Source: a virus | Virus record (IMG/VR): IMGVR_UViG_3300019759_000017 | Coordinates: 1-26,118 of that record | Direction: 5' to 3' (one strand) | Length of the DNA stretch: 26,118 nt | Part shown: piece by piece, positions 3,779 through 22,916 of the stretch | Layout: each line of letters opens with the position of its first letter | How positions within the stretch are numbered: the first letter of the stretch is position 1 | Notes under the pieces: model-generated | The model's input: only the letters and a program-made list of their open reading frames with translations | Databases searched by the model: none | Told to the model about the DNA's origin: nothing | Translations under genes and position numbers: made by a program

Positions 3779-4312
3779 ATGATAGATCCATATAGTAATC
3801 AAACGATAGAGACGCCGGCTACAAATAATAGCATAAGTAGCCCACGGTACGACACGGGGTGGGTAAATAACTTTAAGAACTCATTGGCATCAGGTAACAA
3901 CCTTACACCAAACCAGGCACTAGCGAATAACGCGTATGAGGCGTTCAACCTTAAGTACCCACAAGGACCCAACGTGTTTAACCAATCAGCGTACAATGCT
4001 GACTTAAATACCCTTAATACAGGAGCAGCAAATGCAACTACGTCAGGAGCCTTCAACACTGTCGGTGATGAGGTAAAGGGGCTAGCAAGACCTAATAGCA
4101 CTGGCAGTATATTGGGAGGTCTATCTACAGGAGTGAGTATCATTGGAGGTATCAATGATATAATGAATAGCCGTAGGGCGATAAAGTCTGCAGAGAAGCA
4201 ACTCAGTAAAGATAATGCAAGAAAAGATGAGCTAATGGCTATGAATAGGGAGAAATACAATACCTACAAAGCTGATCGGGCTAGGTTAGCAGCAGAGTAT
4301 AAAGGAAGTTAA
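3779..4312 (+). CDS. Small virion protein, possibly ejected, 177 aa
   Basis: The start ATG has AAAGGAA at 3766-3772. The first ~95 residues are Asn/Ser/Thr/Ala-rich and probably extended. Residues ~108-130 are Gly-rich and apolar (SILGGLSTGVSIIGGINDIM), consistent with membrane association. The last ~45 residues form a basic/acidic helix (KSAEKQLSKDNARKDELMAM). This layout, Asn-rich then a Gly-rich hydrophobic patch then a charged helix, resembles small podoviral internal or ejection proteins such as T7 gp14-type proteins. No family is recognised with certainty. The stop overlaps the next start (TAATG), so the two products are probably made together. Confidence 0.55.
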   Translation: MIDPYSNQTIETPATNNSISSPRYDTGWVNNFKNSLASGNNLTPNQALANNAYEAFNLKYPQGPNVFNQSAYNADLNTLNTGAANATTSGAFNTVGDEVKGLARPNSTGSILGGLSTGVSIIGGINDIMNSRRAIKSAEKQLSKDNARKDELMAMNREKYNTYKADRARLAAEYKGS

Positions 4313-5514
4313 TGGCAAGTTTAATACCAAACACAAATGTACCTGGAGTACTAGGTGGTAATGCCATCGGCTCGCTCCTCAGTGCCTACCAAAATCAGGC
4401 GAATGCAGGTAGGCGCTTTGCTAAAGTCTTTACAGATGCTCGTGATAGGGACATTGCTGAGCAAGGTAGACAAGATAAGCTACTACAGCAAGAGGTAGCT
4501 AACCAGAGAGCTAATGATTTACTAAGTATACAACAAGCACAGAACGAGAGAGCACAAGCTACCGCACTTAGAAATAAAGAACAAGCAGGTAGGAACTTGT
4601 TAAAAGAGCAAAATACACAAAAAATGCAAGGCATAGTAATGAATGCTGTGGCAGGTAACCCAAACTTCAGTGATAAAGACTTAGCAGGTATACTAGAAGC
4701 TAATAAGGACATAGCACATAACGTAGACCCGAAAGCGATACTAGACTTAGTACCAAGCGCACCAAAAGCAGGTAAGTCAGAGTTGTTCTATGTACCAAAC
4801 AAAGAGGCTAAGTTAGGCTACTCACCTAGAATGCTTACTAGAGACGAGCTGCCTTCATACGGTGGTGCGATATCAGAAAGTACGTTCAATAAACAGTTCG
4901 GTAGTACTAAAGGTAAAGGTACCGGAGGAGGTAGTGGTGGACTATTATTCGATAATAAGAAGCAGACTACGTGGAAAGACTTCAAAACAGGAAGTACGCC
5001 AGATAAAATGCTAAAAGACATAGCAGGTAATGATGATTGGTGGTTCGGACTTGGAGCTACTAGTAAAGGTAACGCAGGAAAAGCTATGAGTGAAGGTATT
5101 AAAAAGCTAGAAGAAGCAGGCATTACGTACACACCAGAAGCAGTAACAGACTTGAAGGAAGCTATGTTCAACGCTACGTTAAAGGTAGAGGGCAATAAGA
5201 AAGTATTCAATCAAGGTGCATTCGATAAAAAACTAGATGCTACAATAGCTAGCTATAAAGCTAACCAAAAAAAGAATGCAGATGAAGCTAAGAAGATACT
5301 AGGTGGTGTGGTTAGTCAAGAACAAGTAGTACAACCGCAACAGGTACAGCGTGCTGGTGGTGTACTGAGCGCTGGTCAAGCTAATCAGATTAGAAACGAG
5401 ATAAGATCATTAGAGGAAGGTGGTATATTCTCTAGCGGAGTTACTTCAGTAGCGGCCAAAGAGAAGATCGATAGCAAGTACGGAGAAGGTACTTACGATA
5501 GACTAAAACAGTAA
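4312..5514 (+). CDS. Internal virion protein candidate with helical N-terminus, 400 aa
   Basis: The start overlaps the previous stop (TAATG). Residues ~25-110 form a Gln/Arg/Glu-rich helical region likely to be coiled coil (DKLLQQEVANQRANDLLSIQ). A short domain follows, then a Gly/Thr linker around residue 200 (KGKGTGGGSGG), a Trp-containing alpha domain (~220-320), and a Gln/Val linker (VVSQEQVVQPQQVQ) before a final helix pair that includes SAGQANQIRNEIRSLEEGG. I recognise no catalytic motif. The gene directly precedes vRNAP, which corresponds to the N4 gp51 position. A structural or vRNAP-packaging role is an inference from gene order. Confidence 0.55.
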   Translation: MASLIPNTNVPGVLGGNAIGSLLSAYQNQANAGRRFAKVFTDARDRDIAEQGRQDKLLQQEVANQRANDLLSIQQAQNERAQATALRNKEQAGRNLLKEQNTQKMQGIVMNAVAGNPNFSDKDLAGILEANKDIAHNVDPKAILDLVPSAPKAGKSELFYVPNKEAKLGYSPRMLTRDELPSYGGAISESTFNKQFGSTKGKGTGGGSGGLLFDNKKQTTWKDFKTGSTPDKMLKDIAGNDDWWFGLGATSKGNAGKAMSEGIKKLEEAGITYTPEAVTDLKEAMFNATLKVEGNKKVFNQGAFDKKLDATIASYKANQKKNADEAKKILGGVVSQEQVVQPQQVQRAGGVLSAGQANQIRNEIRSLEEGGIFSSGVTSVAAKEKIDSKYGEGTYDRLKQ

Positions 5515-5572: not shown

Positions 5573-8500
5573 ATGGGAATACTAGGCGATAAAATACAAG
5601 GGCTTAGAAGAGCCAAAGAAAATAAAATAAACTTGCTAAGCGGTGATGTCGCTTTAGCAGGTACTCACAAAGACCCAGCATACATAGAAGATAACGGAAC
5701 GTTATACAACGCAGGGAACAAAATAACTAACAACTTAACACCGGAAGACGTGCAGTACTTAGAAGGGTACATGGCTGCAGATAGACAGATACTACAAAAT
5801 GACGATGGTAGTCTATACAGAACAGATACACCAGCACAAGCATTCACAGGAGACACAGGCACACAGTACCAGTTCGGAGCTAATGAGGAAGGTGTGACTA
5901 AAGTAGGGAAATCACTAGGTTACTTACCAGATGCTCAAGGCAACATAACAAACGTACCAGCAGAGGCTAGGTACATACCAGGTACAGCTGATGGGTTACT
6001 AGGACGTACAATAGGAAGAGATGGCTACGGATGGAAAGCAGGGCCTGCAGGAGTTAACGTAGACGACAAACAGATGGGAATCAAGTACTCAAAAGCAGAT
6101 AACGACTTACTTGAAGGGGTGAAGCACTGGGCATACAGAGACTCAAGAACTAATCAAAGAGTAGATGGTAGTACGGCATTCGAACCAGGAGTAGAGGATA
6201 GCTACGGAAGTGGTAAATCAGAGTACTACAATGAAGGGTTCGCAGGAGATACATCAAAGTCAGAGTTAACAGCAGATGAAGCATACCAAAAAGGTAAATC
6301 GCTATATGATGAGTTGACTGGACAGAAATACGTACAAGAGGGATTAGATAGCCAAGTACACATACCAAATACAGCTAAAGAGGTAGCTGCAGAAATAGGG
6401 ATAGATCCACTAAAGCTAAAAGATGCAAGTAGTGAAGTGCTATACGAGCTAGTTAAGAATACAGACAACGAAGAGCTGAAAAGTAAGTTACACAGGTATG
6501 CAATAAAAGAAGCAATACCAAGTGACACAACTAGCGCAAGTGATCAAGGATGGTTAGAAGGTACTACTAAAGCGCTAGGTAGCGGATTCACTAAAGAGTT
6601 AGCAGTTGACTTCGTCGATTTCGTAGGGGATGCTACAGGGCTATACGACGTAGGTAACGAAGACGAAAAGACTGAAATGGTTAATGACTGGTTCAACTAT
6701 ACACCAACTACAAGTGAAGAGACTCATAAGAAGGTAGCAGTACTGAATAACGTAATATGGGATAGTAAAGCAGACACAACAGATAGGCTAGCAGCAGTAG
6801 CAGAGTCGATATACGAAGCAGCCAAAGATGGCGAGATGCTGGGTAGTAGCTTAGGTGTAATAGCTGCATGGTTCGTGCCAGGGGTTATACTTACTAAAGG
6901 AGATAAAGCAGTTAAGGCGTATAAGGCTATAGACAAGTTAGTAAATGCAGGTGAATTATCAGCTAAAGCAGGGGCTAAAAAGAAGCTTAGTATATTAGGT
7001 TCCAAAGAAGGCGTGAAAACAGCACTGAAGAAACAAACAGGGCAGATTACCGGAGCGCTAGGTAACGTTAACGACCAGTATGAGACATGGGTAGCTAATA
7101 ATAATGGTGTAGGGCTAGAAGGTATGGACAAAATGGTGCACTTAGGTGAGTCATTCGGTATACAAATGCTGAACCAGAACCTAGACGCAATTACTGCTGT
7201 TAGTGTTATAAAAGCACCAGGACTAATAAATGCAGCTAAGCAGTCAATACAAGGAATAAGTGACAAAGCATTCGGACAGCTGATTACAGGTATAGGCAAG
7301 GCAATAGGGTCAGCAGCGTTTGTACAGATGCCAAAAGAAGCCGGACAAGAGTATATACAGAAGATGATGGAGCTTGTTAACGAAAGATACGGATCAGAGA
7401 AGTTCAAAGACCTAGACAGCTTCGTAAAGTTCCTTACAGATGAAGGAGTAATGAAAGAAGGTACAGTTGATGCACTAATGGGTGCAGGTGGTTCAGTGCA
7501 GTTCCAGGCTATAGGAGCAGTACCAAACTTGGTTAAGTCAGCTAGAGATAAAGTAACTAAAGCTAGAGATACTAACACAGAAGATACATACGACGTAGAG
7601 AACGATCCAATAGTAACTAACGAGAAAGCTACAAGTAGACCGATATACGATGACATAATGGGATCAGCAACTAAAGAAGAAGCTGATGAAAAGTTCGCTA
7701 CATACATGGCTAAGAGTAAGAATGATGAGTTAGCACCAGAAGAACTACAGCAAGTAATAGAGGCATACAAAGAGTCAAGACAAGCTGAGGTAAAAAGAAA
7801 AGTAGAGTCAGGTGAGTCACTAGGAGCTACACCACAAGAAGAGCAAGACTTAGTTAATGCATACTTCATGATAGAAGATGAGACAGAAGCAGCTACATTC
7901 AGAGACAAAGCAGAAAAACTGAATCCGGAAATGAAGTCGAAGTTCGAAGTGGCTGGTACAGAAAGAGAGATGTATAAAGAGTTAGGTGGAGGTAGATACT
8001 CAGTTAGAGAGGAAGTAGTATCGAAAGGAATGGATGGTAATAGACTAGGATTCAGAGCATACTTCAGACAAGCAATAACAGCTGATACAGAAGAAGAAAG
8101 AATTGATGCAATTAATAGATTAGAGAAGTTCACAGATTCACAAAGAACTAAGATAACTAGATTAGATGCGATTAAGGAAGAGTCAGAGCAGAAAGTAGTT
8201 AATAAGATAAATAACTTAGCACGTAAGCTAGGTAAAAGCGTAACTGAAGAAGACGTGATGAAAGCAGCGCTAGTAGCTAATAATGTACTAGATGGAGCAC
8301 CAAAAGGTTACTACCAAACAATGGCTAAAGTGCTAGAAGCAATGGGACACAGTACAAAGACTAAAGACGGTAAGTTCAGATCATACGATGACGTGAAAGA
8401 GAACTTGTTCAAGTACTTAGAAATCAAGACTAAGACTGAAGGTAAGTACGCATCAGCTAAAGGTGCACGTAGAGCAGATGAATCAACACCAGGAGTATTC

Positions 8501-11500
8501 ACAGCAGAAGATAAGAAGTCACTAGTACACGTAGCTAGTAGATATGGATTGACACCAAAATTCGCTAAGGTATTCGTAGATGATAAAGGTAATGCGCAAT
8601 CACAAGTAACTAAGAGAATAGATGAGATAGCTAGAGAAGTTACATCAATGGAAAAGGCTAAGAACTTAGTAGCTAAAAGAGTAGCAAGAGAAGCTGGAGT
8701 AGTAGAAGAAGGTGAGGTAGAAGTAGAGCAAGAAACACCTACAGAGCAACCAACTACAGCAAGAGACTCGCTAGATGAAGGACCACAGAGCGATTACCAA
8801 AAAGTAAAGGGTGATGAGCTAGTACAACCAACTACAGAAGATAAGCCAGTAGAGCTGTCAGATGCAAGAAAGAAGTGGGTAAATGGCGCAATAGCTACTG
8901 GTAGAGATAGAGAGGCAATAAGAAGAGTAATTGATGCTAATAGTAAACTAACAGCGGATGAACGAATAGCTATGAGTAATTACCTGGATGAGCAGATGGG
9001 ACCAGTAGTTGAAGAGACAGTACAAGATACACCACCAGACATAGTAGGTGAAGAGATAAACGAGTATGCACAGACTATACAAGATACAGATACAGCTAGT
9101 ATGAGTGAAGAGGAATTAGTTGCATTCAGTAATAAGATAGATAACTGGAATACAAGTAAGTACGATGAAGCATCAGTTAAGGCAATACAAAGCAAGCGTG
9201 AGCAAGTTAAACAAGAGCTAGCTGACTACAAGAAGAAAAGACACGAGAAGGAAGCTAAGCGTAAAGATAAACTACAAGCTAAGATAGATGAGTTGACTGG
9301 AGTAAGAGACGCAGCAAGCAAGAAACTAGAGCAGGTAAAGGAGTCAGTAGCAGACATAAAAGAAGCTACAAAAGACATACAAGCTAAGTACGAAGAGAGA
9401 GCAGCAGTAAGAAACAAGCTAAAAGAAGCGATGAAAGAAGTAGACAAGGCTAACGAAGACGTAGAACTAGCTACTAATGAGATGAACGGAATACTGCAGA
9501 ATACAGATAGCCAGTTAAAAGGAATAACGATTGATGACATAGGGTTGATAGAGAAGTCAATAGCAGCAATCAAAAAAGTAAACAATACACTAGGTAGTGC
9601 AATGGAAGCATTCATAGCTAGAGTAAAAGAGTTACTAGGGATAGTTAGCAAGTACAGTGCAATGGCTAGATTACTGAAAGATGAAGAGAAGAAGCTATCA
9701 GATACGATAAGAGACATGGAAGCAGTAGTTACATACGAGCTAAATGACGAGCACTGGAAAGATAGAAGATCAAAGGCTAAGAAGGACAAAGCTGAGCAAG
9801 TAGCGATAGTAAAAGACAGTGATAGTAAAATAAAGAAGCTAAAGGAAGAGCTAAAAGGTACAGCATACACAGCTGAGATGATTAAAGATGGTAAGAAAGG
9901 TAGTAGAGCTAAAGTAAGACCAACTACAGCAGAAGTAGAAGTACCACTAGACATGAGTAGTGTACTAGTAGCTAGTAAAGCAAGTACTACGTTAGGTAAC
10001 CAAGAATTGACAGATGCAGAGTTAGCTGAGCTAGGAATAACAACTGCTGACATGCAAGATAAGATAGGTCAGTTAGGTGAGATAACAGATACAAAGCTAG
10101 CTAAATACACATACCTAATGATGCTACTGAATAAAGATAATACGATCAATAAGAATACACTAGCTGCAATGGTAGTAGCTACAGATAACTACATAGGAGA
10201 AAACTTAGGATCACTAGAACAGGTAACTAAGAAAGACATCGAATCAATGTACGGGATCAATGACTTAGCTACAGTAGAAAATGCAGGTAAGTACTATGCA
10301 GGTGGTATACCAAGAGACCAAGTAGTTAGAAGAATAGCAGGTGACATAATGAACATGCTAGGAGTAAACTACAAAGGAATAAAAGACGAAGATGGTAACA
10401 TAGTAGATACACAAGAAGAGTTGTACGAGAAGATAAGCGTAGGATTAGCTAATGCAGCAGTACAAGATGCAATTGACTCAGGTAAGTTACAAGTGGTGCC
10501 AGTAGATAAAGATGGAGATAAGAAGCCATGGATGACACTGAAGTTCACACAAGATACACTAGCTAATGAGAAGACAATAGCAGCTAATAAGATGGCAGTG
10601 ATTGATAGGTTGGATAAGTACGAAGCACTACTAGGATTAGAGAAACCGGCTAGAACAATAAAGACTGAAGCAGGTATAAGAACAGTAGAAGATGCGAAGG
10701 CAATCAAGAGAAATGATTACACAGAAGCAGCTACGATGTCAGCAGAAGCAATAGTAAAAGAAGAGCAGACAGCATGGAGACCGAATAGAGAAGTAATAGG
10801 TGGGCTAGTAGAGTTAGGTGAAGAGTCGCTGAAGAAGCTGCTAGGATACAAAGAGGTTAGCACAGCTGAGGCACTAGAAGAGCAGTTATCGACAAAAGGT
10901 AAGAATAGACAAATACAGGACGACATCGATAACTTGATGATACTATGGAATGCGATGGAAGATGGTACAGTAACAGATGAGATGTACTTCGATTGGTTCA
11001 TAAGTAAGAACGGTAGATTGATGATAGATGCAAAAGGAGGGTTCAACCCACAAGCAATCAAGTTACATAGGTACTCAGCGTACAAAGATGGAATGAAGGG
11101 TACAGTAGAGCCAGATGACGAAGCAGCTATGCAGATATACAAGTTAGGGATAGCTCAGTCAATGGGTTACGCAATAGACAAGAAAGACGTGAAAGACAGT
11201 ATAGCATATGCAGAAGTACTGCTAGAGACAGAAGGTGCACTAGATGAAGTACTGGAAGCAATGAAAAACCCACAAAGTATAGAACATAACTGGGTAGAAG
11301 CTAAACCAGGTAAGTGGCACATAGAAGTAGCTGGAGTAGAGATAGAAATAGAAGAGCCAGCTCATGCAATGCAAGCAATTACAGAAGGTAAGAAGTACAA
11401 GAAAGATGAAGCATTCGATACAGTAATGACACTGGAAGTAGATGGATTGACTAACGGATTCGCACATAAGATGCTACAGTACCTAATAACTAAAGGTAGT

Positions 11501-13195
11501 GCAACTAGTACAGAGATAACACCAGAGGCAATGATATGGCTAGAGAAAGTAGGAATACGAGTAAAAGAAGGTGAATCACTAGGTGACATATCAGCTAGAT
11601 TAGATCAGAAGCACGAGGAAGCGATAGTAGATGCATACTGGACACTAGGTGGTGAGCTGACTAAAGGTAAAGGTACACTAGCAGATAAGATAGTGAGTAG
11701 GTATAATGACGACGTAGAGAAGATAGGTGAAGAGAACGCACTAGGTAAAGCACTAAAAGGGTTCACAGGAGCTGCAACACTAGAAGATGCTAAGAAGTCA
11801 GCAAATGCACTACTAGCAGTTACAGAGAAGTTAACTGAAGTAGATGAGAATGGTGAGACAGTGATGACTAAAGCAGTAAGAAACCTGATGAAGTACCCAT
11901 TCATGACATGGGGATACCAAGCAGGATTCAAGTCAATAGCTAACACAATATCATCAGCACTAATAGGAGACGTAGCTAAGCAGATAGTAGAGTACGATGG
12001 AAGTAACAAAGAGATAGCTACACTCGTAGAAGGACTAGGAATAGGTAGCATACAGGAAGTACAGAAGAGGTTATTAACAGAGACATACGGACAAGTAGGT
12101 GCAGGTAGTGATAGAGGTTCATTCGAAAAGCAGTTCAGAGAACAGATAAAAGCAGTGTACGGAGATGCAATACAAGTAGTAATGGAAGATACATTCGGTG
12201 GTGTGATGGAGATTAATAACTCAGTAACACAATCGACTAAAGTGATGTTCGAACTATTCGATAGCATACTACAAGACCACATGAAAGATGGAGTACTGCC
12301 GAAAGACGAGCTAGTTAAGCTAGTTAAAGAAGAGCTGTGGGACGTATTCCCACTAATAGAAGGTCCGCTAAGTGATAGTGAGCAGAATTACATACCAGCA
12401 GTAACTGATAAGATGGCACCGGCAAGAGATAACAAGTACGGACCAATACAAGTATTCACAGGCAAAGAAGGTGAGGATAGCTACACTAGTACAACAAGAA
12501 AGACACTAGGTGAGCCAGGAGTAGGTATCGGAGTAGGGTTGACACATAATGAAGATGCGGCAGGTACAGTAATGAATATGCTAAGACACGATTTGCTACA
12601 AGTATTCGATGCATACGTAATCGGAGTAAACCAATCAGATGCGATAAGTGATGCCAATAAAGACTTCGCAGAAATGAACATGAGAGAAGACTGGTCACAA
12701 ATTAAAGCAGTAGAACAAGGATTACAGAGGGTAATTAGTAACTTAGAGAAGCTACTAGGTAAAGACGAAGCACAAAAGCGCATGAATGGGGTGCACAAGA
12801 AGCTAGAAGACGAAGCAATAGAAAGAGCAGAGCAGTTCGGTGAGCTGACAGGAAAGAGAGTACTGAAGATAAAAGAAGGCGTACTGACACCTGCACAACA
12901 ACTAGCTGAGATAGCTAACATCAGAAAAGCTAATGACGCAAGAAGAGGGCAACTAGCTGATAAAGAAGTAGACATACAGCAATTCGTGCATGATGAAGCG
13001 ACTGGATACGTACATGAAGGCGATACTAAGAAGGTAGGTGAGCAAGGTACAGTAGACAATGGTATGATAGGACAGATAGAGAGTAAGTACGAAGGTAAGT
13101 TCGAGAATAGCAAAGTAGGTAAAGAGTTAGTTAAAGAGATGACTAAGGACAAGTATGATACAATGCTGGAAGTAATAAAACAAGGATGTAAGTAA
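5573..13195 (+). CDS. Virion RNA polymerase (N4 vRNAP-like single-subunit RNAP), 2540 aa
   Basis: This should be a DNA-dependent RNA polymerase packaged in the virion and ejected to transcribe early genes. Four family motifs are visible. A TxxGR-type motif is S1811-KNG-R1815. Motif A is VDGLTNG with D1957. Motif B is RNLMKYPFMTWGYQAG with R2103, K2107 and Y2115, the same R-x3-K-x7-Y spacing as T7 R627/K631/Y639. Motif C is LQVFDAYVIG with D2346. Spacings of 142, 150 and 239 residues compare with roughly 135, 111 and 281 between the corresponding N4 residues, from memory. The first ~1390 residues form an N-terminal region with an apolar segment (~420-441), an acidic Pro/Thr/Glu linker (~1043-1190) and coiled coil (~1218-1310). 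The ATG has AAGGA at 5560-5564. The protein ends about 190 residues after motif C, close to where the N4 polymerase core ends, so the C-terminal third of N4 vRNAP is missing from this gene. Confidence 0.88.
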   Translation: MGILGDKIQGLRRAKENKINLLSGDVALAGTHKDPAYIEDNGTLYNAGNKITNNLTPEDVQYLEGYMAADRQILQNDDGSLYRTDTPAQAFTGDTGTQYQFGANEEGVTKVGKSLGYLPDAQGNITNVPAEARYIPGTADGLLGRTIGRDGYGWKAGPAGVNVDDKQMGIKYSKADNDLLEGVKHWAYRDSRTNQRVDGSTAFEPGVEDSYGSGKSEYYNEGFAGDTSKSELTADEAYQKGKSLYDELTGQKYVQEGLDSQVHIPNTAKEVAAEIGIDPLKLKDASSEVLYELVKNTDNEELKSKLHRYAIKEAIPSDTTSASDQGWLEGTTKALGSGFTKELAVDFVDFVGDATGLYDVGNEDEKTEMVNDWFNYTPTTSEETHKKVAVLNNVIWDSKADTTDRLAAVAESIYEAAKDGEMLGSSLGVIAAWFVPGVILTKGDKAVKAYKAIDKLVNAGELSAKAGAKKKLSILGSKEGVKTALKKQTGQITGALGNVNDQYETWVANNNGVGLEGMDKMVHLGESFGIQMLNQNLDAITAVSVIKAPGLINAAKQSIQGISDKAFGQLITGIGKAIGSAAFVQMPKEAGQEYIQKMMELVNERYGSEKFKDLDSFVKFLTDEGVMKEGTVDALMGAGGSVQFQAIGAVPNLVKSARDKVTKARDTNTEDTYDVENDPIVTNEKATSRPIYDDIMGSATKEEADEKFATYMAKSKNDELAPEELQQVIEAYKESRQAEVKRKVESGESLGATPQEEQDLVNAYFMIEDETEAATFRDKAEKLNPEMKSKFEVAGTEREMYKELGGGRYSVREEVVSKGMDGNRLGFRAYFRQAITADTEEERIDAINRLEKFTDSQRTKITRLDAIKEESEQKVVNKINNLARKLGKSVTEEDVMKAALVANNVLDGAPKGYYQTMAKVLEAMGHSTKTKDGKFRSYDDVKENLFKYLEIKTKTEGKYASAKGARRADESTPGVFTAEDKKSLVHVASRYGLTPKFAKVFVDDKGNAQSQVTKRIDEIAREVTSMEKAKNLVAKRVAREAGVVEEGEVEVEQETPTEQPTTARDSLDEGPQSDYQKVKGDELVQPTTEDKPVELSDARKKWVNGAIATGRDREAIRRVIDANSKLTADERIAMSNYLDEQMGPVVEETVQDTPPDIVGEEINEYAQTIQDTDTASMSEEELVAFSNKIDNWNTSKYDEASVKAIQSKREQVKQELADYKKKRHEKEAKRKDKLQAKIDELTGVRDAASKKLEQVKESVADIKEATKDIQAKYEERAAVRNKLKEAMKEVDKANEDVELATNEMNGILQNTDSQLKGITIDDIGLIEKSIAAIKKVNNTLGSAMEAFIARVKELLGIVSKYSAMARLLKDEEKKLSDTIRDMEAVVTYELNDEHWKDRRSKAKKDKAEQVAIVKDSDSKIKKLKEELKGTAYTAEMIKDGKKGSRAKVRPTTAEVEVPLDMSSVLVASKASTTLGNQELTDAELAELGITTADMQDKIGQLGEITDTKLAKYTYLMMLLNKDNTINKNTLAAMVVATDNYIGENLGSLEQVTKKDIESMYGINDLATVENAGKYYAGGIPRDQVVRRIAGDIMNMLGVNYKGIKDEDGNIVDTQEELYEKISVGLANAAVQDAIDSGKLQVVPVDKDGDKKPWMTLKFTQDTLANEKTIAANKMAVIDRLDKYEALLGLEKPARTIKTEAGIRTVEDAKAIKRNDYTEAATMSAEAIVKEEQTAWRPNREVIGGLVELGEESLKKLLGYKEVSTAEALEEQLSTKGKNRQIQDDIDNLMILWNAMEDGTVTDEMYFDWFISKNGRLMIDAKGGFNPQAIKLHRYSAYKDGMKGTVEPDDEAAMQIYKLGIAQSMGYAIDKKDVKDSIAYAEVLLETEGALDEVLEAMKNPQSIEHNWVEAKPGKWHIEVAGVEIEIEEPAHAMQAITEGKKYKKDEAFDTVMTLEVDGLTNGFAHKMLQYLITKGSATSTEITPEAMIWLEKVGIRVKEGESLGDISARLDQKHEEAIVDAYWTLGGELTKGKGTLADKIVSRYNDDVEKIGEENALGKALKGFTGAATLEDAKKSANALLAVTEKLTEVDENGETVMTKAVRNLMKYPFMTWGYQAGFKSIANTISSALIGDVAKQIVEYDGSNKEIATLVEGLGIGSIQEVQKRLLTETYGQVGAGSDRGSFEKQFREQIKAVYGDAIQVVMEDTFGGVMEINNSVTQSTKVMFELFDSILQDHMKDGVLPKDELVKLVKEELWDVFPLIEGPLSDSEQNYIPAVTDKMAPARDNKYGPIQVFTGKEGEDSYTSTTRKTLGEPGVGIGVGLTHNEDAAGTVMNMLRHDLLQVFDAYVIGVNQSDAISDANKDFAEMNMREDWSQIKAVEQGLQRVISNLEKLLGKDEAQKRMNGVHKKLEDEAIERAEQFGELTGKRVLKIKEGVLTPAQQLAEIANIRKANDARRGQLADKEVDIQQFVHDEATGYVHEGDTKKVGEQGTVDNGMIGQIESKYEGKFENSKVGKELVKEMTKDKYDTMLEVIKQGCK

Positions 13196-13196
13196 A

Positions 13197-16100
13197 ATGA
13201 AAAAATGTACACTAAAAGTATTAAGAGATGAGCATGGGTTCAAACCAGAAGACCTGAAAGCAGTAAGAAAATATGTGAAGAGTAAGGAGTACTGGGAGAA
13301 CAATAAGCTAATCACTGATAGTGTGCTAAGAGACTCAGGATTATTCATGAACGCAATGTACAGAGGTGATGATAAGGAGTTAGCTGCAATCAATGCAGCA
13401 GGACCAAGAATCGGTAATGCACCACTATACGTACACGGAGTAACAAAAGACATAGCAGTAGTTACATACCCAGATAACGCACAAGGATACAACTTCCCGC
13501 TAGATGACCTGACAGTAGATGGAATCAACATGAAGACATACCTGAGAGAAGGGTTACATAAAGAAGAACCAATACAGCAATTGACTAAAGAGCAACAGAA
13601 AGCAGCAGATGAGCGTAGCGCATACATGCAAGAGAGATTAGGGCAGGAAGACATAGTATCAGGTAGAGGTACATACAGAAATGATCCAGATACAGGTAAG
13701 ATAGAAAGAGGTGAAGTAGTACTAGATGGTAAGAACATAAACAGCTTCACAGCAATTAATGAACTAGCAGAGAAGCTAGATGAGATAGATGAGATTGGTA
13801 CAAGTGATGAGCACAAAGTAGCACTACAGAAAGTACTGAAGACGATGCTGGCAGGTACAGCTAAACCATTAAGAGAGATGAACGTATACCTAAATGATAA
13901 GGGTAGAGATAATGGTGGTACGATTGACGTTGATAAAGAAGTAGGGATTAACATAGCTAAGGGTAGTAGAAAGAAAGAGTTCGGTAATGACATGAGCTTA
14001 ATAGAGATACTAGTGCATGAGTTAGTACATGGTAGTAGTGGGTTCGGAATGGAGAATAGAGCACCAGAGATCACTAAACAGCTAGAACTACTGAAAGAGT
14101 TACAAGAAGCTACAATGAAAGAGTTGACAGTAGAGGACATGATGGGTGACATAACAATGAGCCCAGAAGTATCAAGACAGATAGCTGAGAGACGAATTAA
14201 GTACATGAACGATGACTTGCGAGAGTTCCTAGCATATGCACTAACACACGAGGGAGTAATTAATAAGCTAAAGACGATAACTATTAAGCAAGTGAAGGAT
14301 AAGTACGATAATAAAGAGATGAACGCATTCGAGAGAATACTAGCAGCAGTAAAGACGATGTTCGATGCAGCACTGAAAGCGTTCGGTAAAGAGGATAGAC
14401 GTACAGTTAGAGGTGATAAGCTAGCAATGAAGCTACTAAGTGACATAGCTAAAGTAAACCAGAGAGCAGAGCTAGAACAGAAGACAGGTACATGGACTAA
14501 GATAAATAATACGATAGATGACGTAGAAGCTAAGACAGTTGAGTGGTTAGATAAGAGTGAGACTAAAGCAGCTAAGAATGCGATGGACATATACAAGAAT
14601 AAAGGTAAGAAGAACCTGTGGGATATGATGAAGATAATGTGGTTGGCAGCAGCTACAGAAGAAGGTACACCAATCATGCAGAGTTGGCTGACAGGGATAG
14701 GAAGAAAGCCAGAAGGGTTCGTACAGACAGTAATCAGACACATGAAGAGACCAGATGCAACAGGCAACAGAAGACAAGAACTGACACTGATGGCAGCACA
14801 GATCGAGACTACAAGAAAAGCTACAATAGATGGACTGACTAAGTTAGTTAGTAAGGTATTCAAGAAGAAGCTGACTAATGGTGAGAAGGTAGCAGTATAC
14901 GCGTCAATGGAAGTAGCAGACGGATACAGACTAGTTAACGAGTTCGGTAAAGGTGCAGGCAAGTTATACGAGAATGAAGCAGAGCTAGATAAGGAGATAC
15001 ATAAGCTAGAGAAGGCGATAGGTAAGAATACGAGAGACGTACGAGATAGTAGATCAGTAATTAGCCAGACTAAAGGATTAGCTAAGTGGATGACTGAAGG
15101 AGTAGGATCGATAGTACAGAGAAGGAATGCGAAGCAGATAGTTAGATACGCGACTAAAGGTGAGAATAAAGAGCTAATAGAAGCAGTAGATACACTAGCA
15201 TCACTATACGCAATAAAAGAGCTAGACAAGTCAGTAAAATCTGGAATAGCTAAAGTAATGAGTAAAGAGTACGATGCGATAGAAAGAATGGCACAGTTGA
15301 ATAGAGGATTCCACGAGTACAAACAAGGTAGGATGACAGAGATGCAAAGAAATAACCTAGCTAAGAACTACCACAGAGAAGAGTACGACAGTATGGTTGA
15401 GACTAGAGTAGCTAAGATATCAGAAAGAACACAAATGAGAGAGTTAGGGTTCGAATTAGTTAAGAAGATAGAGAATAATGGGTTAGGTGGAAAAGGAAGT
15501 ACACTAGCACTATACAGAAGTACAACTAACATAAAAGAGGCATTCGATACAAGTTCGATAATATACGTAGGTGAGGATTCGCAAGGTAGATTGTTGAAAG
15601 AAGACATAATAGCAGCAGGTAACTTAGATACGCTACCACTAGTGATGAAGAAACAGATGGCAGTAGCAAGACAGAAGGAAGCTAGATACGAAGAAGCAGT
15701 ACGTAGAGGACAAGAGCCGGAGATTGATACGACAGTGATACCAGAAGTAGATGAGTACGGAGTAGTAGTAGACTACAGAGCGATAACTAGCATGAAGGAT
15801 AAGTTAGAGCACATGGGACTAGAACAGAATCCGATGAATACGATAGGTAGAAACTGGGCACATGAGAGTGACCTAGAAGAGTCAGATAAGCAGAATGAGA
15901 TAGTATGGGACGAGTTGATAGGTGACTTCGTAGATGAAGCACCAATGAATGGAACTAGAGGAATTAACAATGGAATGGACTACATAGAGGTAAGTAAAGA
16001 GAGTGGAGTGTTCGAAGTTAAGGATGCAGCTAGAATACTACCAAAGCAGCTACAACAGAAGCTAGTTAGAATAGAAGAGGCAAAGAAAGCGCTACTGGTA

Positions 16101-17399
16101 GCTAGAAGTATGTATAAGAGTGGAGAGTCAGATAAGGCAATACGCAAAGAGATGCACAAGATGAGAGGTGGTAGAGATGTGGAGTTCAATAGTAAGAAAG
16201 GGTTCTACCAAGTAACAGATGGAGCAGTAATTAGCGTAGTAGGTGAAAAGCACTGGAATAGGCTAAGACCAAGTAGAAAGGCAGCAATAAGAAGAAGGCT
16301 AGGTAGAGGTCACATAATGGTTAGAAGGGACATGATACTAGATACATTCGGAATTAGAGACTTGACAGCAGCGGAATTCGTTAATGGAAAGGTGATAGGT
16401 AAGAACAATGCAAAGGTAGTTAAGAAGTTGATACTAGAGATAGAGCACGTATGGAAAGATATAGTGCAGATATTCAAAGTGGATATGATTATTAGAATGC
16501 TGCCGGTAATAATGGGAAACATAGTGAGTAACATAATGTACTCAGTGCAGTACGGACACTTCCCATGGGAGATAGCTAAGAGACAGTTAGATGGAGTGAA
16601 AGCACTGAGAGATTACTTGAAGAGTAAAGAAAGATTGACTGAATTGATGGCTGAATTGTCGATAGACCCGGAAAATCAGCAGTTGAGAGATGAGCAAGCT
16701 AGAGTGATAGATGGGATGAAGACAAACCCAGCTATGCCGCTATTCGATGCGAACTTATACAGTCACATAGTAGAGGACGTAGGATTAACAGACTTCAAGT
16801 CGAATAGTAGATTGACTAGAATGATTGATGATAAGTTAGAGGGTGCACCACAGGCAGTTAGGACAGGAATAGACTGGATGTTCGTGAATGAGAAGACGAG
16901 CTTGTTCCAGATAGTAACAAAGGCTACTGCGTACAGTGACTTCGTAGCTAGATATGCACAGTATACGTTGAGTAAAGAAAAAGAGATGGCTAAGTTTGCC
17001 AGAGTTAACAATAGAATGATGAATGATGGTGAAGTTGAGAGATTGAGTAAGGAGTTAGTTACTCAGGTTAGGGATGCATACGTGAACTACGCGAAACCGG
17101 ATAGTAGAGTACTGCAGTACATGAATGACATGGGGATGGTAGCGTTCACTAAGTATGCGATAAGAATACAGAAAGCGCTAGGTGATATGGCTAGAGGTAG
17201 ACCAGTTAGGCTGGCATTGGCGATACTAGGACAGGAGTTATTCATAGCTAGTACAGGGATTAACTTCGAAGATCCACTAGAGAAGTCGTTCCTAAGTAGA
17301 AGCCCGGATAGTTGGTTGTATACGCCAGGAGTTAGCACGATACTAGGTAACATACTAGAGCCGCAGATGGTAGCTCATATGAGAGCATTGACAGATTAA
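13197..17399 (+). CDS. vRNAP C-terminal-domain-like giant virion protein with HExxH motif, 1400 aa
   Basis: It starts one base after the vRNAP stop, in another frame, with AAGGA at 13182-13186. Its length is close to the C-terminal domain of N4 vRNAP (about 1397 residues, needed for encapsidation), and it sits where that domain would continue. The last ~350 residues have a pattern I associate with C-termini of N4-type vRNAPs and other giant phage proteins: MLPVIMGNIVSNIMYSVQYG, then YSDFVARYAQYTLSKE, AYVNYAKPDSRVLQYMND and FTKYAIRIQKAL. Residues 274-278 are HELVH, with a possible third zinc ligand in REFLAYAL (E343), a gluzincin-like metallopeptidase site seen in large polyvalent phage proteins. 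Two stretches, ~1083-1110 and ~1350-1375, are apolar. I infer a packaged and ejected partner of vRNAP; a protease role is unproven. Confidence 0.75.
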   Translation: MKKCTLKVLRDEHGFKPEDLKAVRKYVKSKEYWENNKLITDSVLRDSGLFMNAMYRGDDKELAAINAAGPRIGNAPLYVHGVTKDIAVVTYPDNAQGYNFPLDDLTVDGINMKTYLREGLHKEEPIQQLTKEQQKAADERSAYMQERLGQEDIVSGRGTYRNDPDTGKIERGEVVLDGKNINSFTAINELAEKLDEIDEIGTSDEHKVALQKVLKTMLAGTAKPLREMNVYLNDKGRDNGGTIDVDKEVGINIAKGSRKKEFGNDMSLIEILVHELVHGSSGFGMENRAPEITKQLELLKELQEATMKELTVEDMMGDITMSPEVSRQIAERRIKYMNDDLREFLAYALTHEGVINKLKTITIKQVKDKYDNKEMNAFERILAAVKTMFDAALKAFGKEDRRTVRGDKLAMKLLSDIAKVNQRAELEQKTGTWTKINNTIDDVEAKTVEWLDKSETKAAKNAMDIYKNKGKKNLWDMMKIMWLAAATEEGTPIMQSWLTGIGRKPEGFVQTVIRHMKRPDATGNRRQELTLMAAQIETTRKATIDGLTKLVSKVFKKKLTNGEKVAVYASMEVADGYRLVNEFGKGAGKLYENEAELDKEIHKLEKAIGKNTRDVRDSRSVISQTKGLAKWMTEGVGSIVQRRNAKQIVRYATKGENKELIEAVDTLASLYAIKELDKSVKSGIAKVMSKEYDAIERMAQLNRGFHEYKQGRMTEMQRNNLAKNYHREEYDSMVETRVAKISERTQMRELGFELVKKIENNGLGGKGSTLALYRSTTNIKEAFDTSSIIYVGEDSQGRLLKEDIIAAGNLDTLPLVMKKQMAVARQKEARYEEAVRRGQEPEIDTTVIPEVDEYGVVVDYRAITSMKDKLEHMGLEQNPMNTIGRNWAHESDLEESDKQNEIVWDELIGDFVDEAPMNGTRGINNGMDYIEVSKESGVFEVKDAARILPKQLQQKLVRIEEAKKALLVARSMYKSGESDKAIRKEMHKMRGGRDVEFNSKKGFYQVTDGAVISVVGEKHWNRLRPSRKAAIRRRLGRGHIMVRRDMILDTFGIRDLTAAEFVNGKVIGKNNAKVVKKLILEIEHVWKDIVQIFKVDMIIRMLPVIMGNIVSNIMYSVQYGHFPWEIAKRQLDGVKALRDYLKSKERLTELMAELSIDPENQQLRDEQARVIDGMKTNPAMPLFDANLYSHIVEDVGLTDFKSNSRLTRMIDDKLEGAPQAVRTGIDWMFVNEKTSLFQIVTKATAYSDFVARYAQYTLSKEKEMAKFARVNNRMMNDGEVERLSKELVTQVRDAYVNYAKPDSRVLQYMNDMGMVAFTKYAIRIQKALGDMARGRPVRLALAILGQELFIASTGINFEDPLEKSFLSRSPDSWLYTPGVSTILGNILEPQMVAHMRALTD

Positions 17400-17438: not shown

Positions 17439-17960
17439 CTACCTCTCGTCGAGGATTGCTTGGAGTTTGGGTTCAGGAGCGAATAGTTCCTCCCACTGAT
17501 CAGGCTTGATAACCTTGTTTTGTGAGTCCTTCGTGCCACCCTTCATAAGGTTAGCATCGTGGACAACTTGAAGGCCGTCGACCATCTGTGATGGAGTAAT
17601 CCCTTGCATGTGCATGTTACCAATCTCAATGTATATAGCATCAAGACTAGAATCAAATGCTGCAACAGGAGCTACTTCCTCATTAGTAGTGCCATCAGTG
17701 TTATCACCAGTAGTTAACTGGACAATAGTACGAGCTAGTAGCTTAGGTGTATTGCCACAGTCGAGTTGATTAGCCAACTTGTCAGATAACGGCAGCTTCT
17801 CGAGTGCTTCCTCTATAACTAAGGCTGCTGCATTGCTAGCACTATAGCTGCCGTGAGGGTTATTCCATACGACGTCGTTAATGCGTGTGATGTCTTCGAA
17901 GAGATTCAGCAGTTGTTTCTTATGAACCACAGTTAAGTACCATGATGCGTAGTTGAGCAA
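17439..17960 (-). CDS. MazG/HisE-like nucleotide pyrophosphohydrolase, about 173 aa
   Basis: All-alpha NTP pyrophosphohydrolases hydrolyse nucleotides to monophosphates using Mg-binding acidic pairs. Here E50-E51-xx-E54 (LVIEEALEKL) provides the first pair, and FDSSLDAIYIEIGNMHMQG, around residues 102-120, the second acidic helix. The tail VVHDANLMKGG...NKVIKPDQWEE matches the usual phage form, in which an Asn-x-x-Lys segment is followed by a K-P-x-x-W/Y element. The start is uncertain: the frame opens at TTG 17960 and overlaps the upstream gene by 41 bases, GTG 17930 is an alternative, and neither has a good ribosome site, so coupling to the 113-aa gene is likely. It fits the dNTP-metabolism context as the last gene of its block. 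Confidence 0.65.
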   Translation of the reverse strand: MLNYASWYLTVVHKKQLLNLFEDITRINDVVWNNPHGSYSASNAAALVIEEALEKLPLSDKLANQLDCGNTPKLLARTIVQLTTGDNTDGTTNEEVAPVAAFDSSLDAIYIEIGNMHMQGITPSQMVDGLQVVHDANLMKGGTKDSQNKVIKPDQWEELFAPEPKLQAILDER

Positions 17961-18261
17961 GCTTCAACATAGTGTCTGCTTGAGACTTAGAGATTGGAGC
18001 TTTTTGCTTAAGTGTGTTGCCGATTACGTCAAGACACTGATTAGCTACTGCTTCAGGCTTCGATAATAGCAGTTGTTCAGGTTCAAGGTTAGGGATATCA
18101 GGGATAGCCTCGTCAAGTTCCTCTACAGTAGTTGGTTCGTTGAATGCTTCTATAGCTTCGTCGAATTCTGACTTTACTTTCGCGGCTTTGGCTTCGTCGA
18201 TAGCTTCATTAAAGCCGTCGATGATACCTTGCCAGATTTCTTCTAGTTCGTTTGTTTTCAT
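17920..18261 (-). CDS. Acidic hypothetical protein, 113 aa
   Basis: The start ATG has TAAGGAAT nine to ten bases upstream. The first ~60 residues are strongly acidic helices with short repeats (DEAKAAKVKSEFDEAIEAF, then VEELDEAIPDIPNLEP). The C-terminal part is a neutral helical domain (KSQADTMLKLAQLRIMVLN). There is no motif, membrane segment or known family that I recognise. It lies between thyX and the MazG-like gene and overlaps the latter by up to 41 bases, so it is co-expressed with nucleotide-metabolism genes. The acidity could suggest a nucleic-acid mimic or a binding partner, but that is speculation. Confidence 0.6.
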   Translation of the reverse strand: MKTNELEEIWQGIIDGFNEAIDEAKAAKVKSEFDEAIEAFNEPTTVEELDEAIPDIPNLEPEQLLLSKPEAVANQCLDVIGNTLKQKAPISKSQADTMLKLAQLRIMVLNCGS

Positions 18262-18293
18262 TTAATTATTCCTTAATGTTTTCATTGCGTGTA

Positions 18294-18986
18294 CTAGTTC
18301 GATGTACTGATACAGTGGTCAAATATGTACTTATACTCTTCGGGTAACGCGCCAAATACACAGTTAGCTAATTGCCTGATTTCCCATAGTGCTGACTTAG
18401 CAGTACGTAGTGCTAGAAAGTTTTGTAGTGATCTAGCATTGATGGTCCAAGCTAGAGATGTCTTGTAGGCCTCAGGCATGGCATATTTAGCTTTATCGTT
18501 AGGTACACCTTCTCGTAGTAAGCTCTGCAAGTTGCATAAAGCCCTGTAAGAGTGCATGTCAACTTCCTGTATACCAGTTCGTACTAAGTACTTATCAGAC
18601 ATTCCGTACTCTAAATCCTCGTCTTTCAGCTCCTTAAGGGTGTACCTAGTTGACTTAACAGATAGGCTGGCTATTCTATGTCGAGCTAGTTCCTGAAGTA
18701 GTGCACGACTTACACCTTCGATAGTAAAGTTACATGTGATATGCTCCAATGTGGATGCATGCTTGTACTTGTTACCGATACGATCGATTAGAGCTAGGTC
18801 ATTGGGTCCGCACTCAATAGCACCTGATGGTACTAATTCATATGAGTCAGACTTACCTTGTGATTGCCAACATTGTCGAATTGCATCACTACATATATGT
18901 AGCGGTGTTATATGTTCTAGATGTACTTGCATTTGAGTTGTTGCCTGGCTGAAATCAGATGGTACGTCTACGTGTGTAGTTGTCAT
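18294..18986 (-). CDS. thyX: Flavin-dependent thymidylate synthase ThyX, 230 aa
   Basis: ThyX makes dTMP from dUMP using FAD, NADPH and methylene-tetrahydrofolate. The signature RHR-x7-S is present as R102-H103-R104 to S112, within RHRIASLSVKSTRY. Supporting features are the upstream STLEHITCNF segment (H82), the dUMP/folate region with AYKTSLAWTINARSLQNFL, and the closing ALRTAKSALWEIR helix. Length is normal for phage ThyX (about 200-250 aa). The first ~20 residues are Thr/Gln-rich and may be disordered. The ATG has AAGGAA seven bases upstream, inside the short gap after phoH. With NrdAB it would supply dTTP for phage replication independently of host ThyA. Confidence 0.95.
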   Translation of the reverse strand: MTTTHVDVPSDFSQATTQMQVHLEHITPLHICSDAIRQCWQSQGKSDSYELVPSGAIECGPNDLALIDRIGNKYKHASTLEHITCNFTIEGVSRALLQELARHRIASLSVKSTRYTLKELKDEDLEYGMSDKYLVRTGIQEVDMHSYRALCNLQSLLREGVPNDKAKYAMPEAYKTSLAWTINARSLQNFLALRTAKSALWEIRQLANCVFGALPEEYKYIFDHCISTSN

Positions 18987-18995
18987 GTGTGTTCC

Positions 18996-20372
18996 TTATT
19001 TGGTGAATGCGGATTCGGCAAACTCAGCCATAGGTGACCTAATAACTCGAGAGAGCTTGATAGCGTAAAGGCTAATAAGGTCCTGAGGTTTGAGGCACTC
19101 GTTGAGTAGTACCGAAAGTCCGTTGTTGTATTTAGTTACGTAAGGTGAGTCGATCTGGTTATTGGAACCAGTTAGGATTAGCTTACAGTCCTTACCAACA
19201 CGGGTTAGCATCTTCTGAAGTGAGGCTTTAGATTGCCCTTGTACTTCGTCGATGATGATGATCTTGTTGGTAAATGTACGACCACGTAGGTTGAGTCCGG
19301 TCATTGCGGTGATATTGTAGTCAGACATTAGCTTGTCGACTTGCTGCTCGATGAATTCCTCGTATTCGAGGCCCTTGAGCTTGGATTGCTTACTGTTCGA
19401 GCGGGCAATGAACTCAAGTGAGTCACGTAATGGTAAGTAGAACCCAGCGAACTTCTCTTCGAGTCCTGGTAAGAAACCGACTTCCTCGATCTGCTCAACG
19501 TCATTAATAGAGGCTCGTATGTACAGAATTCCTTCGAATGGGTTGTTCTGCTTGATTAGCTTCATTGCGTTGGATAGGGCAGTGATTGTCTTACCAGAGC
19601 CGGCTTTACTGTCACAAACTATGATGTCGATAAACGGATCACAGATTGCCTTGGATAGTAAGAGTTGTTCGGAGTTGACTGGAGAGACGTCTTGACGACG
19701 TAACTCAGCTTCGGTTGTCTTGCCAATTACATCAATTAGGCCAGAACGAGAGACAGTAGCTAGCTTGTCATAGCCTAGTTCAGGGCAGTGGAAGCGGTAG
19801 TTAAAGTTCTCAGGTTGATGGTCAGGGTTGACTTCGTGGATTGGCGTGTTGTGCAGTGATGAGAAGATGTCGGAAGGTATATCCAGCTCCTTCAGGAACT
19901 CATAGGATGTCTTCTCAGTGATCTTCAAGTCAATTGCATTAAGACCTAATGAAAGAGCTGTAATGCGGCACATAACGTCGTTAGACATATAGGTTACTGA
20001 CTCGTAGTACTTGTTGTACTCCAGAGCTACATCGATGATCTTGCGGTCATTTAGAGTGCTAGGGTCAACAGAAGTAGTGTCGAATGAGTAGCTAGAAGCA
20101 GAAGTAATGTGGACATGAGTACCATCCTCCAGGATTACTGGAGTGATAACTAGGTTGTCTTGCTTGAAGACTTCCATGATGGTACCACGAGCTATTAGAC
20201 GACCAAATGAACGTGCCTGATAGCCAAGTTCACCGGGTACTGACTTCTTAGAGTCGAGTTCGTTGATTACGGTTTCAGGTAGAACGATAGTGGTTTCGTC
20301 GTTAGCTAGAATGGTGAGGTTGTTAGCATCCAAAAGGAGGATATTAGTATCCAAAATAAGGTACTTATTCAT
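18996..20372 (-). CDS. phoH: PIN domain-PhoH-type ATPase, 458 aa
   Basis: This is a PIN nuclease-like domain joined to a PhoH NTPase domain, the PhoH2 type, thought to be RNA helicases with ribonuclease activity. PIN acidic residues are visible at D8 (LILDTN), E38 (VINELD), D109/D114 (NDRKIIDVA) and D132. The ATPase has Walker A SKAGSGKT (K261) and Walker B IIIIDE (D374-E375), followed by KLILTGSNNQID, a sensor-like strand. Length is normal for the family. The start lies in the last codons of the upstream GIY-YIG gene, with AAAGGA seven bases before ATG. It is preceded in the same operon by a separate stub of a former phoH start (20980-21078), so the 5' end seems to have been rebuilt after endonuclease insertion. 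Confidence 0.92.
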   Translation of the reverse strand: MNKYLILDTNILLLDANNLTILANDETTIVLPETVINELDSKKSVPGELGYQARSFGRLIARGTIMEVFKQDNLVITPVILEDGTHVHITSASSYSFDTTSVDPSTLNDRKIIDVALEYNKYYESVTYMSNDVMCRITALSLGLNAIDLKITEKTSYEFLKELDIPSDIFSSLHNTPIHEVNPDHQPENFNYRFHCPELGYDKLATVSRSGLIDVIGKTTEAELRRQDVSPVNSEQLLLSKAICDPFIDIIVCDSKAGSGKTITALSNAMKLIKQNNPFEGILYIRASINDVEQIEEVGFLPGLEEKFAGFYLPLRDSLEFIARSNSKQSKLKGLEYEEFIEQQVDKLMSDYNITAMTGLNLRGRTFTNKIIIIDEVQGQSKASLQKMLTRVGKDCKLILTGSNNQIDSPYVTKYNNGLSVLLNECLKPQDLISLYAIKLSRVIRSPMAEFAESAFTK

Positions 20373-20979
20373 AAAGATCCTTTATAAGACCACCGATACA
20401 GCCTTTTAGTACACCTTTCTTGGCAGGGATGCCTGAGGAGTCTCTAACTCGGTACATTAAATTACCATAACTAAGGCCATTCTGTTTGGCGTATTCTTTT
20501 ATAGTGATATCATAAAACTCTGTAATTACTCCATCAGGAGAGGTTAGAAACCATGGGCTGAACTTATGACTTTTCGTCCCGCACTGAGCATCACTCATCT
20601 TTGCTTTAGCTTCTTCAGTAAATGTACGGCCTTTTTGGGCTTTGCTCATATTCTTTCGTGTTGCAGCGGAAGCTTTCCACCCTTTGTTAGTTTCGCCGCC
20701 TTCAGTAAGGTTGTACCCATCAGTATACGATGCTTCCATGGCTATACAGTTTATCTCTAAATCAGAGAGTAATTCAACAGGTACATTCTCCACTAGAGTG
20801 TCCCATTCAAAGTTTTCTTCACCGTACTTATTGATAGCACGATGAAAGTACATCGATGTCTTGTTACATCTAGCGTCACTTAAGTGTCCGTTTTTACGTT
20901 CACGTAAAGACCCAGTAGTCTTTCCTACATACGTTTTACCGTTTTTTACGTTAGTTGCTTTATATATTAATCCTGTCAT
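20365..20979 (-). CDS. GIY-YIG homing endonuclease with NUMOD3-type repeats, 204 aa
   Basis: The catalytic GIY-YIG domain starts at the chosen ATG: TGLIYKATN and KTYVGKT are the two signature strands, RERKNGHL holds the catalytic Arg, and the late Glu and Asn lie in LEINCIAMEASYTDGYNLTEGG. Two NUMOD3-like DNA-binding repeats follow (RKNMSKAQKGRTF and EEAKAKMSDAQCGT), then a C-terminal helical DNA-binding part. The frame is open a further 33 codons upstream to ATG 21078. I prefer ATG 20979 because AGGAG (20987-20991) stands seven bases before it and the domain begins exactly there; the upstream codons look like a phoH remnant. A fused 237-aa product is also possible. The gene overlaps phoH by 8 bases. 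It is probably a selfish element. Confidence 0.9.
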   Translation of the reverse strand: MTGLIYKATNVKNGKTYVGKTTGSLRERKNGHLSDARCNKTSMYFHRAINKYGEENFEWDTLVENVPVELLSDLEINCIAMEASYTDGYNLTEGGETNKGWKASAATRKNMSKAQKGRTFTEEAKAKMSDAQCGTKSHKFSPWFLTSPDGVITEFYDITIKEYAKQNGLSYGNLMYRVRDSSGIPAKKGVLKGCIGGLIKDLYE

Positions 20980-21078
20980 AACTTTACTCCTGTTATCAAG
21001 AAGTATACTGTATTTAAGCTTATATACACCTTTGTTGGTATCTAATACTAGGTATTTAGCTGTTTCTAGAGATTTCAT
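20980..21078 (-). pseudogene. Relic of the original phoH start, now in frame with the endonuclease
   Basis: Codons 8-15 of this 33-codon leader read KYLVLDTN, matching codons 3-10 of the intact phoH, KYLILDTN (20343-20366). At the DNA level 17 of 24 bases agree, and most differences are in third codon positions. The stub keeps the ATGA overlap with the NADAR gene and an AAGGGA ribosome site, as a real gene start would. After DTN the reading frame turns into unrelated sequence (KGVYKLKYS) before the endonuclease ATG. This is what remains if an endonuclease gene entered codon ~15 of phoH and a second, recoded 5' end was supplied downstream. Confidence 0.7.
20987..20991 (-). promoter_or_regulatory. 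Ribosome binding site deciding the endonuclease start
   Basis: AGGAG on the minus strand, seven bases before ATG 20979. It supports an independent start for the GIY-YIG protein rather than only the 237-codon fused reading frame. Confidence 0.7.
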
Positions 21079-21524: not shown

Positions 21525-21545
21525 TACAAGCTCCTTGTAAAAATT

Positions 21546-22915: not shown

Positions 22916-22916
22916 A

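Follow-up and report, generated by a model that had tools for sequence, protein, structure and literature searches.

The virion RNA polymerase (vRNAP) of phage N4 (Schitoviridae), gp50, is a single chain of 3,500 residues made up, in order, of an N-terminal domain (NTD), a single-subunit RNA polymerase (RNAP) core, and a C-terminal domain (CTD) that comprises a C1 subdomain with an HExxH motif (PMC12633501) and a C2 subdomain. Like gp14, gp15, and gp16 of phage T7, N4 gp50 to gp52 are carried in the virion and exit through the tail before the DNA does. There is no Cys in the 3,500 residues of gp50, and the absence of Cys from vRNAP is already known and has been connected with the transit of the protein across tail and periplasm (PMC3715699, PMC2784036, PMC3915230). 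Cryo-electron microscopy of N4 places a disordered linker (residues 2102 to 2123) between RNAP and CTD; the two domains touch and pack in a tight complex, but their interface is weak, with a deltaG near zero, and the CTD lowers polymerase activity (PMC12633501). The CTD is reportedly also needed for encapsidation, according to unpublished work cited in PMC4496689. Here, we describe an N4-type vRNAP divided between two adjacent genes, ORF1 (NTD and RNAP core) and ORF2 (CTD), in one IMG/VR virus record of 26,118 bases (IMGVR_UViG_3300019759_000017), the whole of which is the window analyzed here. Each protein has a single Cys, and that Cys lies at the cut end.

The resemblance of the window to N4 extends to its gene order, as the vRNAP gene of both follows homologues of gp53, gp52, and gp51, and to Cys depletion, as N4 gp51 and gp52 and their apparent window counterparts are Cys free. 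A preliminary description of the window had noted genes of 2,540 and 1,400 codons, one base apart and in different frames, with the first stopping about 190 residues past polymerase motif C, and had read them as a vRNAP split in two with the second piece being the N4 CTD as a separate protein. The coordinates bear this out: one base separates the ORF1 stop from the ORF2 ATG (a +1 frame relation), and D2346, the last invariant Asp in the motif C region, is 194 residues short of the ORF1 end. Moreover, the two proteins match successive parts of PHROG 2206 (virion RNA polymerase, 3,406 positions), ORF1 over profile positions 1011 to 2002 (2.6e-65) and ORF2 in two stretches, the better of which covers positions 3031 to 3396 (5.5e-113), and the feature is thus far beyond chance. 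N4-like vRNAPs from Vibrio and other phages align by tblastn over up to 89% of ORF2. Sequence search alone against PDB sequences gave nothing for either window protein, and profiles and folds were needed.

AlphaFold models were built from alignments of the window proteins with the fetched loci. For the model of the RNAP part (ORF1 residues 1485 to 2540; pLDDT 79.4, pTM 0.80), the 10 best PDB matches were all N4 vRNAP structures, with E values down to 9.5e-25. The comparison with the N4 CTD that had been suggested for the 1,400-residue protein returned the N4 CTD fold, as the model of ORF2 residues 201 to 1400 (pLDDT 79.0, pTM 0.74) had the N4 vRNAP complexes 9pnt and 9pnr as its sole significant PDB matches (Foldseek, 3.6e-17 and 9.2e-17) and aligned to the N4 CTD with a VIA-align Z score of 25. 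Over the entire CTD model, Foldseek gave low TM-scores (0.26), probably due to differing subdomain orientations. We conclude from sequence and predicted structure that ORF1 carries an N4-type single-subunit RNAP core and that ORF2 is the N4 CTD as a separate protein. Thus, the window encodes a split variant: two proteins take the place of one continuous chain of about 3,500 residues, and two Cys, both at cut ends, are found where N4 has none.

The split of vRNAP into two genes is real and not a sequencing error. Viral and genome contigs were scanned and the loci sorted by hidden Markov model, giving 71 fused vRNAP loci (deduplicated) and 24 distinct lineages cut between RNAP and CTD, that is, the window and 23 others (loci carry L numbers below). 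The only isolates among them are the Alteromonas phages vB_AmaP_AD45-P1 to P4 (Efbeekayvirus), whose records are annotated "potential frameshift"; AD45-P3 has pieces of 2,495 and 1,409 residues, and two IMG/VR contigs are likewise split into 2,112 plus 1,375 and 2,075 plus 1,285 residues. Frame relations of 0, 1, and 2 occur at 7, 7, and 15 joints, respectively, and the gaps range from -11 to +26 nucleotides, save one of 613 nucleotides. With all three frame relations and varied gaps present, the split cannot be put down to an error or to a conserved recoding site. Sequencing error was ruled out by the number of lineages, the frame relations, and the presence of genes at some joints, and readthrough or programmed frameshifting was ruled out by the lack of any conserved frame relation or overlap. 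In the window itself, the ORF2 frame is open for only six codons upstream of its ATG.

The cut also has a single place and a simple history. The four cuts first examined map by alignment to about N4 residues 2092 to 2126, at the disordered linker, and the natural cut therefore falls at a true domain boundary. A tree of the C2 domain (LG+C20) places the split lineages together behind a 100/100 branch and can be explained by two changes, a single fused/split event plus the re-fusion of L015; a larger quick tree agrees. Fused-frame relatives form a separate clade, bar L015. The nearest relative of the window is L126 (45% identity over C2). No relative carries an unrelated protein in the CTD slot, and four lineages place extra proteins beside the CTD.

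The main feature of the split, missed by the preliminary description, is that the cut ends are capped by Cys. Fused vRNAPs lack Cys altogether at 66 of 71 loci. The window pair has 2 Cys in 3,940 residues where about 46 are expected, and the 54 proteins of the 24 split chains have 61 in 85,223 residues where a background of 1.10% in neighboring ORFs predicts about 936. All but one of the 61 lie no more than six residues from a terminus facing another protein of the chain, the outer ends have none, and 53 of the 54 proteins carry exactly the predicted set. The cap lies in the last one to six residues of the upstream protein and at residues 3 to 6 of the downstream protein (in AD45, ...KHCKQ-stop and MTIC...), and it is present on both sides at 30 of 30 joints, while the flanking columns hold 8 to 15 different residues. 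Terminal Cys as a general habit of these genomes was ruled out, as among 116 ordinary pairs of neighboring genes on one strand in the same loci, just 1 has Cys at both facing ends. A DNA-level signal was also ruled out, as TGT and TGC are both used on both sides and genes intervene between some pieces. The log10 figure of -125 obtained for Cys placement ignores relatedness and is not a probability of independent events. Counted by events, there are about nine cappings: the RNAP|CTD split, the NTD|RNAP cuts of L126, L049, L057, and L077, and the inserts of L016, of L156/L157, and of L008 (two). Were each to arise at the 1-in-116 chance, their joint probability would, roughly, be near 1e-18.

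There are exceptions to the pattern. One inner Cys occurs in an insert of 987 residues in L008, and Cys, one or two per locus, are present in five of the fused loci, at inner positions in L043, L109, L128, and L049 and as N-terminal caps in L049 and L077. Uncapped breaks inside C2 in L057 and L085 are probably frameshift errors and were set aside. The vRNAP of pSb-1 (L089), broken into three ORFs, served as an uncapped contrast.

Capping recurs at other interruptions of the chain. The RNAP and CTD genes of L016, L156, L157, and L008 are separated by one or two additional genes, whose products (408, 875, 816, and 1,293 plus 987 residues, respectively) are all capped at both ends. The L156/L157 inserts resemble Dda/RecD helicases, with PADLOC matches that are generic helicase matches, and are a candidate injected helicase. 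The first L008 insert is a candidate injected multidomain effector, judging by its domains (Table 1), and the L016 insert may represent a copied linker/C1 region. Outside the split clade, the NTD of L049, L057, and L077 has a gene of its own, set apart by several unrelated genes from an RNAP-CTD gene downstream; for L077, the upstream ORF is cut off at the contig end and its identity as NTD is presumed from position. These upstream proteins end in ...SCMKG-stop, ...GCALK-stop, or ...KCG-stop, and the RNAP-CTD proteins start with MSYRKC, MALKDC, or MSTDAC. The three loci occupy three places on the RNAP tree and need three separate changes. In L126, both linkers are cut and both are capped. Conversely, L015, re-fused as a chain of 3,141 residues inside the split clade, has no Cys, as the linker including both caps is deleted.

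How the two pieces are held together is suggested by the caps. The preliminary description held that polymerase and packaging partner must meet non-covalently, a claim that is not supported: a single Cys at each cut end in all 24 split lineages points instead to end-to-end joining by a bond that is covalent yet reducible. We propose, with a probability of roughly 0.7, that a two-piece N4-type vRNAP cut at the flexible RNAP-CTD linker is joined end to end by a disulfide between the facing cap Cys and that the CTD is freed in the cytoplasm. The cap Cys would form the interchain disulfide in the oxidizing surroundings of the free virion and periplasm, restoring one continuous chain, and the linked pieces would pass the narrow tail as a string. 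The reducing cytoplasm would then cut the bond and free the CTD, which would relieve the CTD inhibition reported for N4. Since Cys occur on facing ends only, are double on inserts, are missing from outer ends, and are lost on re-fusion, an end-to-end disulfide is the simplest reading of the pattern. In relatives, the same coupling would insert double-capped proteins as cargo (a Dda/RecD-like helicase or a DprA/NADAR/2OG-oxygenase protein). We lean, with odds somewhat better than even, toward a wider proposal for this clade of N4-related phages, in which polymerase, cargo, and CTD would be ejected as a string of separate proteins joined by single disulfides and released by redox, with a modular payload and with the cytoplasm freeing the polymerase from an inhibitory domain.

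Several points weigh against the disulfide. The bond is deduced from sequence throughout, and a single ancestral RNAP|CTD split underlies all 24 lineages, which therefore do not count as 24 independent origins. Virions assemble in the reducing cytoplasm, such that bond formation would have to wait until after lysis or be assisted. The AD45-P1 genome includes a thioredoxin gene (KF005317 72326-72571), whose product may serve ribonucleotide reductase and could bear on the redox idea, and no sulfhydryl oxidase is annotated in AD45-P1. If the CTD is needed for encapsidation, as the unpublished work cited for N4 has it, packaging of the RNAP ahead of bond formation needs explaining. Finally, L106 and pSb-1 are broken at the NTD|RNAP linker without caps; these breaks have the appearance of frameshift errors, yet genuine splits without caps could also account for them.

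The end Cys might be functional and paired without an interchain disulfide, either in a metal or Fe-S center or in homodimers of like ends across the three to five virion copies, with the pieces otherwise held non-covalently. The pattern shows only that Cys lie at facing ends and gives no redox state, and N4 RNAP and CTD do touch. One Cys per end, however, supplies few ligands for a metal site, and homodimers give no account of why both facing ends are capped, inserts are capped twice, outer ends are bare, and both caps are lost on re-fusion. We consider this explanation unlikely. Less probable still, and doubtful in our view, are purely non-covalent halves with terminal Cys that are incidental or serve something unrelated. 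Such an arrangement has precedents in the tight RNAP-CTD packing of N4 (PMC12633501) and in N4 RNAPII, a heterodimer whose subunits, gp15 and gp16, come from two genes (PMC4496689). The N4 interface is weak, however, and incidental residues would hardly be kept at every joint amid freely varying neighbors or recur at a second linker elsewhere.

The remaining two explanations we regard as highly improbable. Cys at both junction ends is a feature of intein splicing, and the caps could thus hint at ligation of the pieces through a peptide bond, by a split intein or by a reversed HExxH metallopeptidase domain. C1 does have a zincin-like HExxH motif (PMC12633501), but its first His is lost in AD45 and L056, Cys lies zero to five residues from the ORF1 end and leaves no room for a split intein, and the intein was ruled out when a Pfam search of ORF1 and ORF2 returned no intein family. 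A frameshift artifact, or a product joined by programmed frameshifting or stop codon readthrough, has been assumed for AD45 and pSb-1; the AD45 annotation is worded accordingly, and the authors of PMC10654107 saw two adjacent ORFs in AD45, ascribed them to errors in gene calling or to readthrough, and concatenated them. The breaks of pSb-1, L057, and L085 do resemble frameshift errors, but a break that recurs in 24 lineages with three frame relations and differing gaps, that is separated by whole genes in L016, L008, L156, L157, L126, L049, L057, and L077, and that is capped where natural and uncapped where artifact-like is poorly explained in this way.

Why giant N4-type polymerases lack Cys has so far been explained only as the avoidance of disulfides during tail passage. 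On the disulfide reading, the split relatives seem to be an exception that makes sense of the rule, as the sole Cys kept are those able to rejoin a cut chain. If so, single reducible bonds can link the ejection proteins of a virus, gain of a double-capped gene could alter which proteins are injected and how many, and arrival in the cytoplasm could itself trigger the release of the polymerase from its inhibitory domain. The pattern also offers a sequence rule for spotting injected cargo genes and corrects public annotation in which the split was treated as a frameshift. The AD45 phages, which like the window have two capped ORFs but differ from it in sequence (about 22% identity over ORF2), are cultured and provide a system in which to ask if ejection proteins move as a single string. 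Polyvalent proteins (PMC5512222) are also close to this system: they are large, have several domains, and are believed to enter the cell along with the phage DNA; N4-like vRNAPs are counted among them, and the L008 insert shares their makeup. Polyvalent proteins keep their domains in one polypeptide, with release by an internal metallopeptidase proposed, whereas here the proteins are separate and seemingly coupled by their end Cys. We found no report of a split vRNAP or of ejection proteins linked by disulfides or otherwise covalently end to end in the literature searched, which did not cover subscription papers.

Table 1. Positions of vRNAP features and other genes in the window (plain coordinates) and in related loci (prefixed by locus or accession)
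Feature	Position	Strand	Basis or remark
ORF1, NTD and RNAP core, 2540 aa (amino acids)	5573..13195	+	ATG start, TAA at 13193-13195; sole Cys is residue 2539
RNAP core region, ORF1 residues 1510-2520	10100..13132	+	PHROG 2206; PDB matches N4 mini-vRNAP 3c3l, 9pnq
AAGGA, Shine-Dalgarno-like, 10 nucleotides 5' of ORF2 ATG	13182..13186	+	Sequence reading; overlaps ORF1 end
C-terminal cap Cys codon of ORF1, TGT (...IKQGCK-stop)	13187..13189	+	Sequence
ORF2, free-standing vRNAP CTD, 1400 aa	13197..17399	+	ATG start; sole Cys is residue 4
N-terminal cap Cys codon of ORF2, TGT (MKKC...)	13206..13208	+	Sequence
HExxH motif (HELVH, ORF2 residues 274-278), C1 subdomain	14016..14030	+	Alignment with N4
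Cys-free 177-aa protein, position of N4 gp52 (periplasmic tunnel)	3779..4312	+	Gene order only
Cys-free 400-aa protein, position of N4 gp51 (outer-membrane ejection protein)	4312..5514	+	Gene order only
Genes 3' of ORF2, several families	17439-26118	-	Opposite strand to ORF1 and ORF2
ThyX	18294-18986	-	
PhoH with PIN domain	18996-20372	-	
GIY-YIG/NUMOD3	20365-21078	-	
NADAR	21075-21524	-	
ClpP-like	21546-22118	-	
Ribonucleotide reductase, both subunits	within 17439-26118	-	
L016 408-aa double-capped insert	L016:8238-9464		Part weakly matches PHROG 2206 positions 2102-2250
L156/L157 inserts, Dda/RecD-like helicases	L156:3370-5997; L157:3370-5820		Cys only near both ends
L008 first insert	L008:3002-6883		DprA-like, DUF7831, NADAR, 2OG-Fe(II) oxygenase domains
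L008 second insert	L008:6893-9856		Matches no known family
L106 NTD and RNAP, no caps	L106:3074-9503		Overlapping frames
pSb-1 (L089) vRNAP, three ORFs, no Cys caps	NC_023589 60193-70981		Breaks at NTD-RNAP linker and in C1 just after HExxH

Within the window, the position of AAGGA over the ORF1 end suggests that ORF2 may be translationally coupled to ORF1. No DNA-level similarity was found between the window and known phages. The first His of HExxH is lost from the CTDs of AD45 (L001:9059-13288) and L056 (L056:9296-13480), indicating that metallopeptidase activity is not conserved across the split group. We note that a Cys-rich ORF of 204 residues (MCNTT...NERCNLKGAA; L126:3278-3892) separates the NTD and RNAP genes of L126, both capped, and is either an insertion or a chain member. 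In L019, an in-frame stop (L019:1105-1107; ...VPIHFIDGA-stop) falls within the RNAP gene beside the motif C region. Lastly, the sole locus from the genome-contig scan, L161 (CALIBI010000067.1), is an AD45-like capped split vRNAP in a contig of a Sulfolobales-labeled metagenome-assembled genome and is probably mis-binned phage DNA of marine origin.

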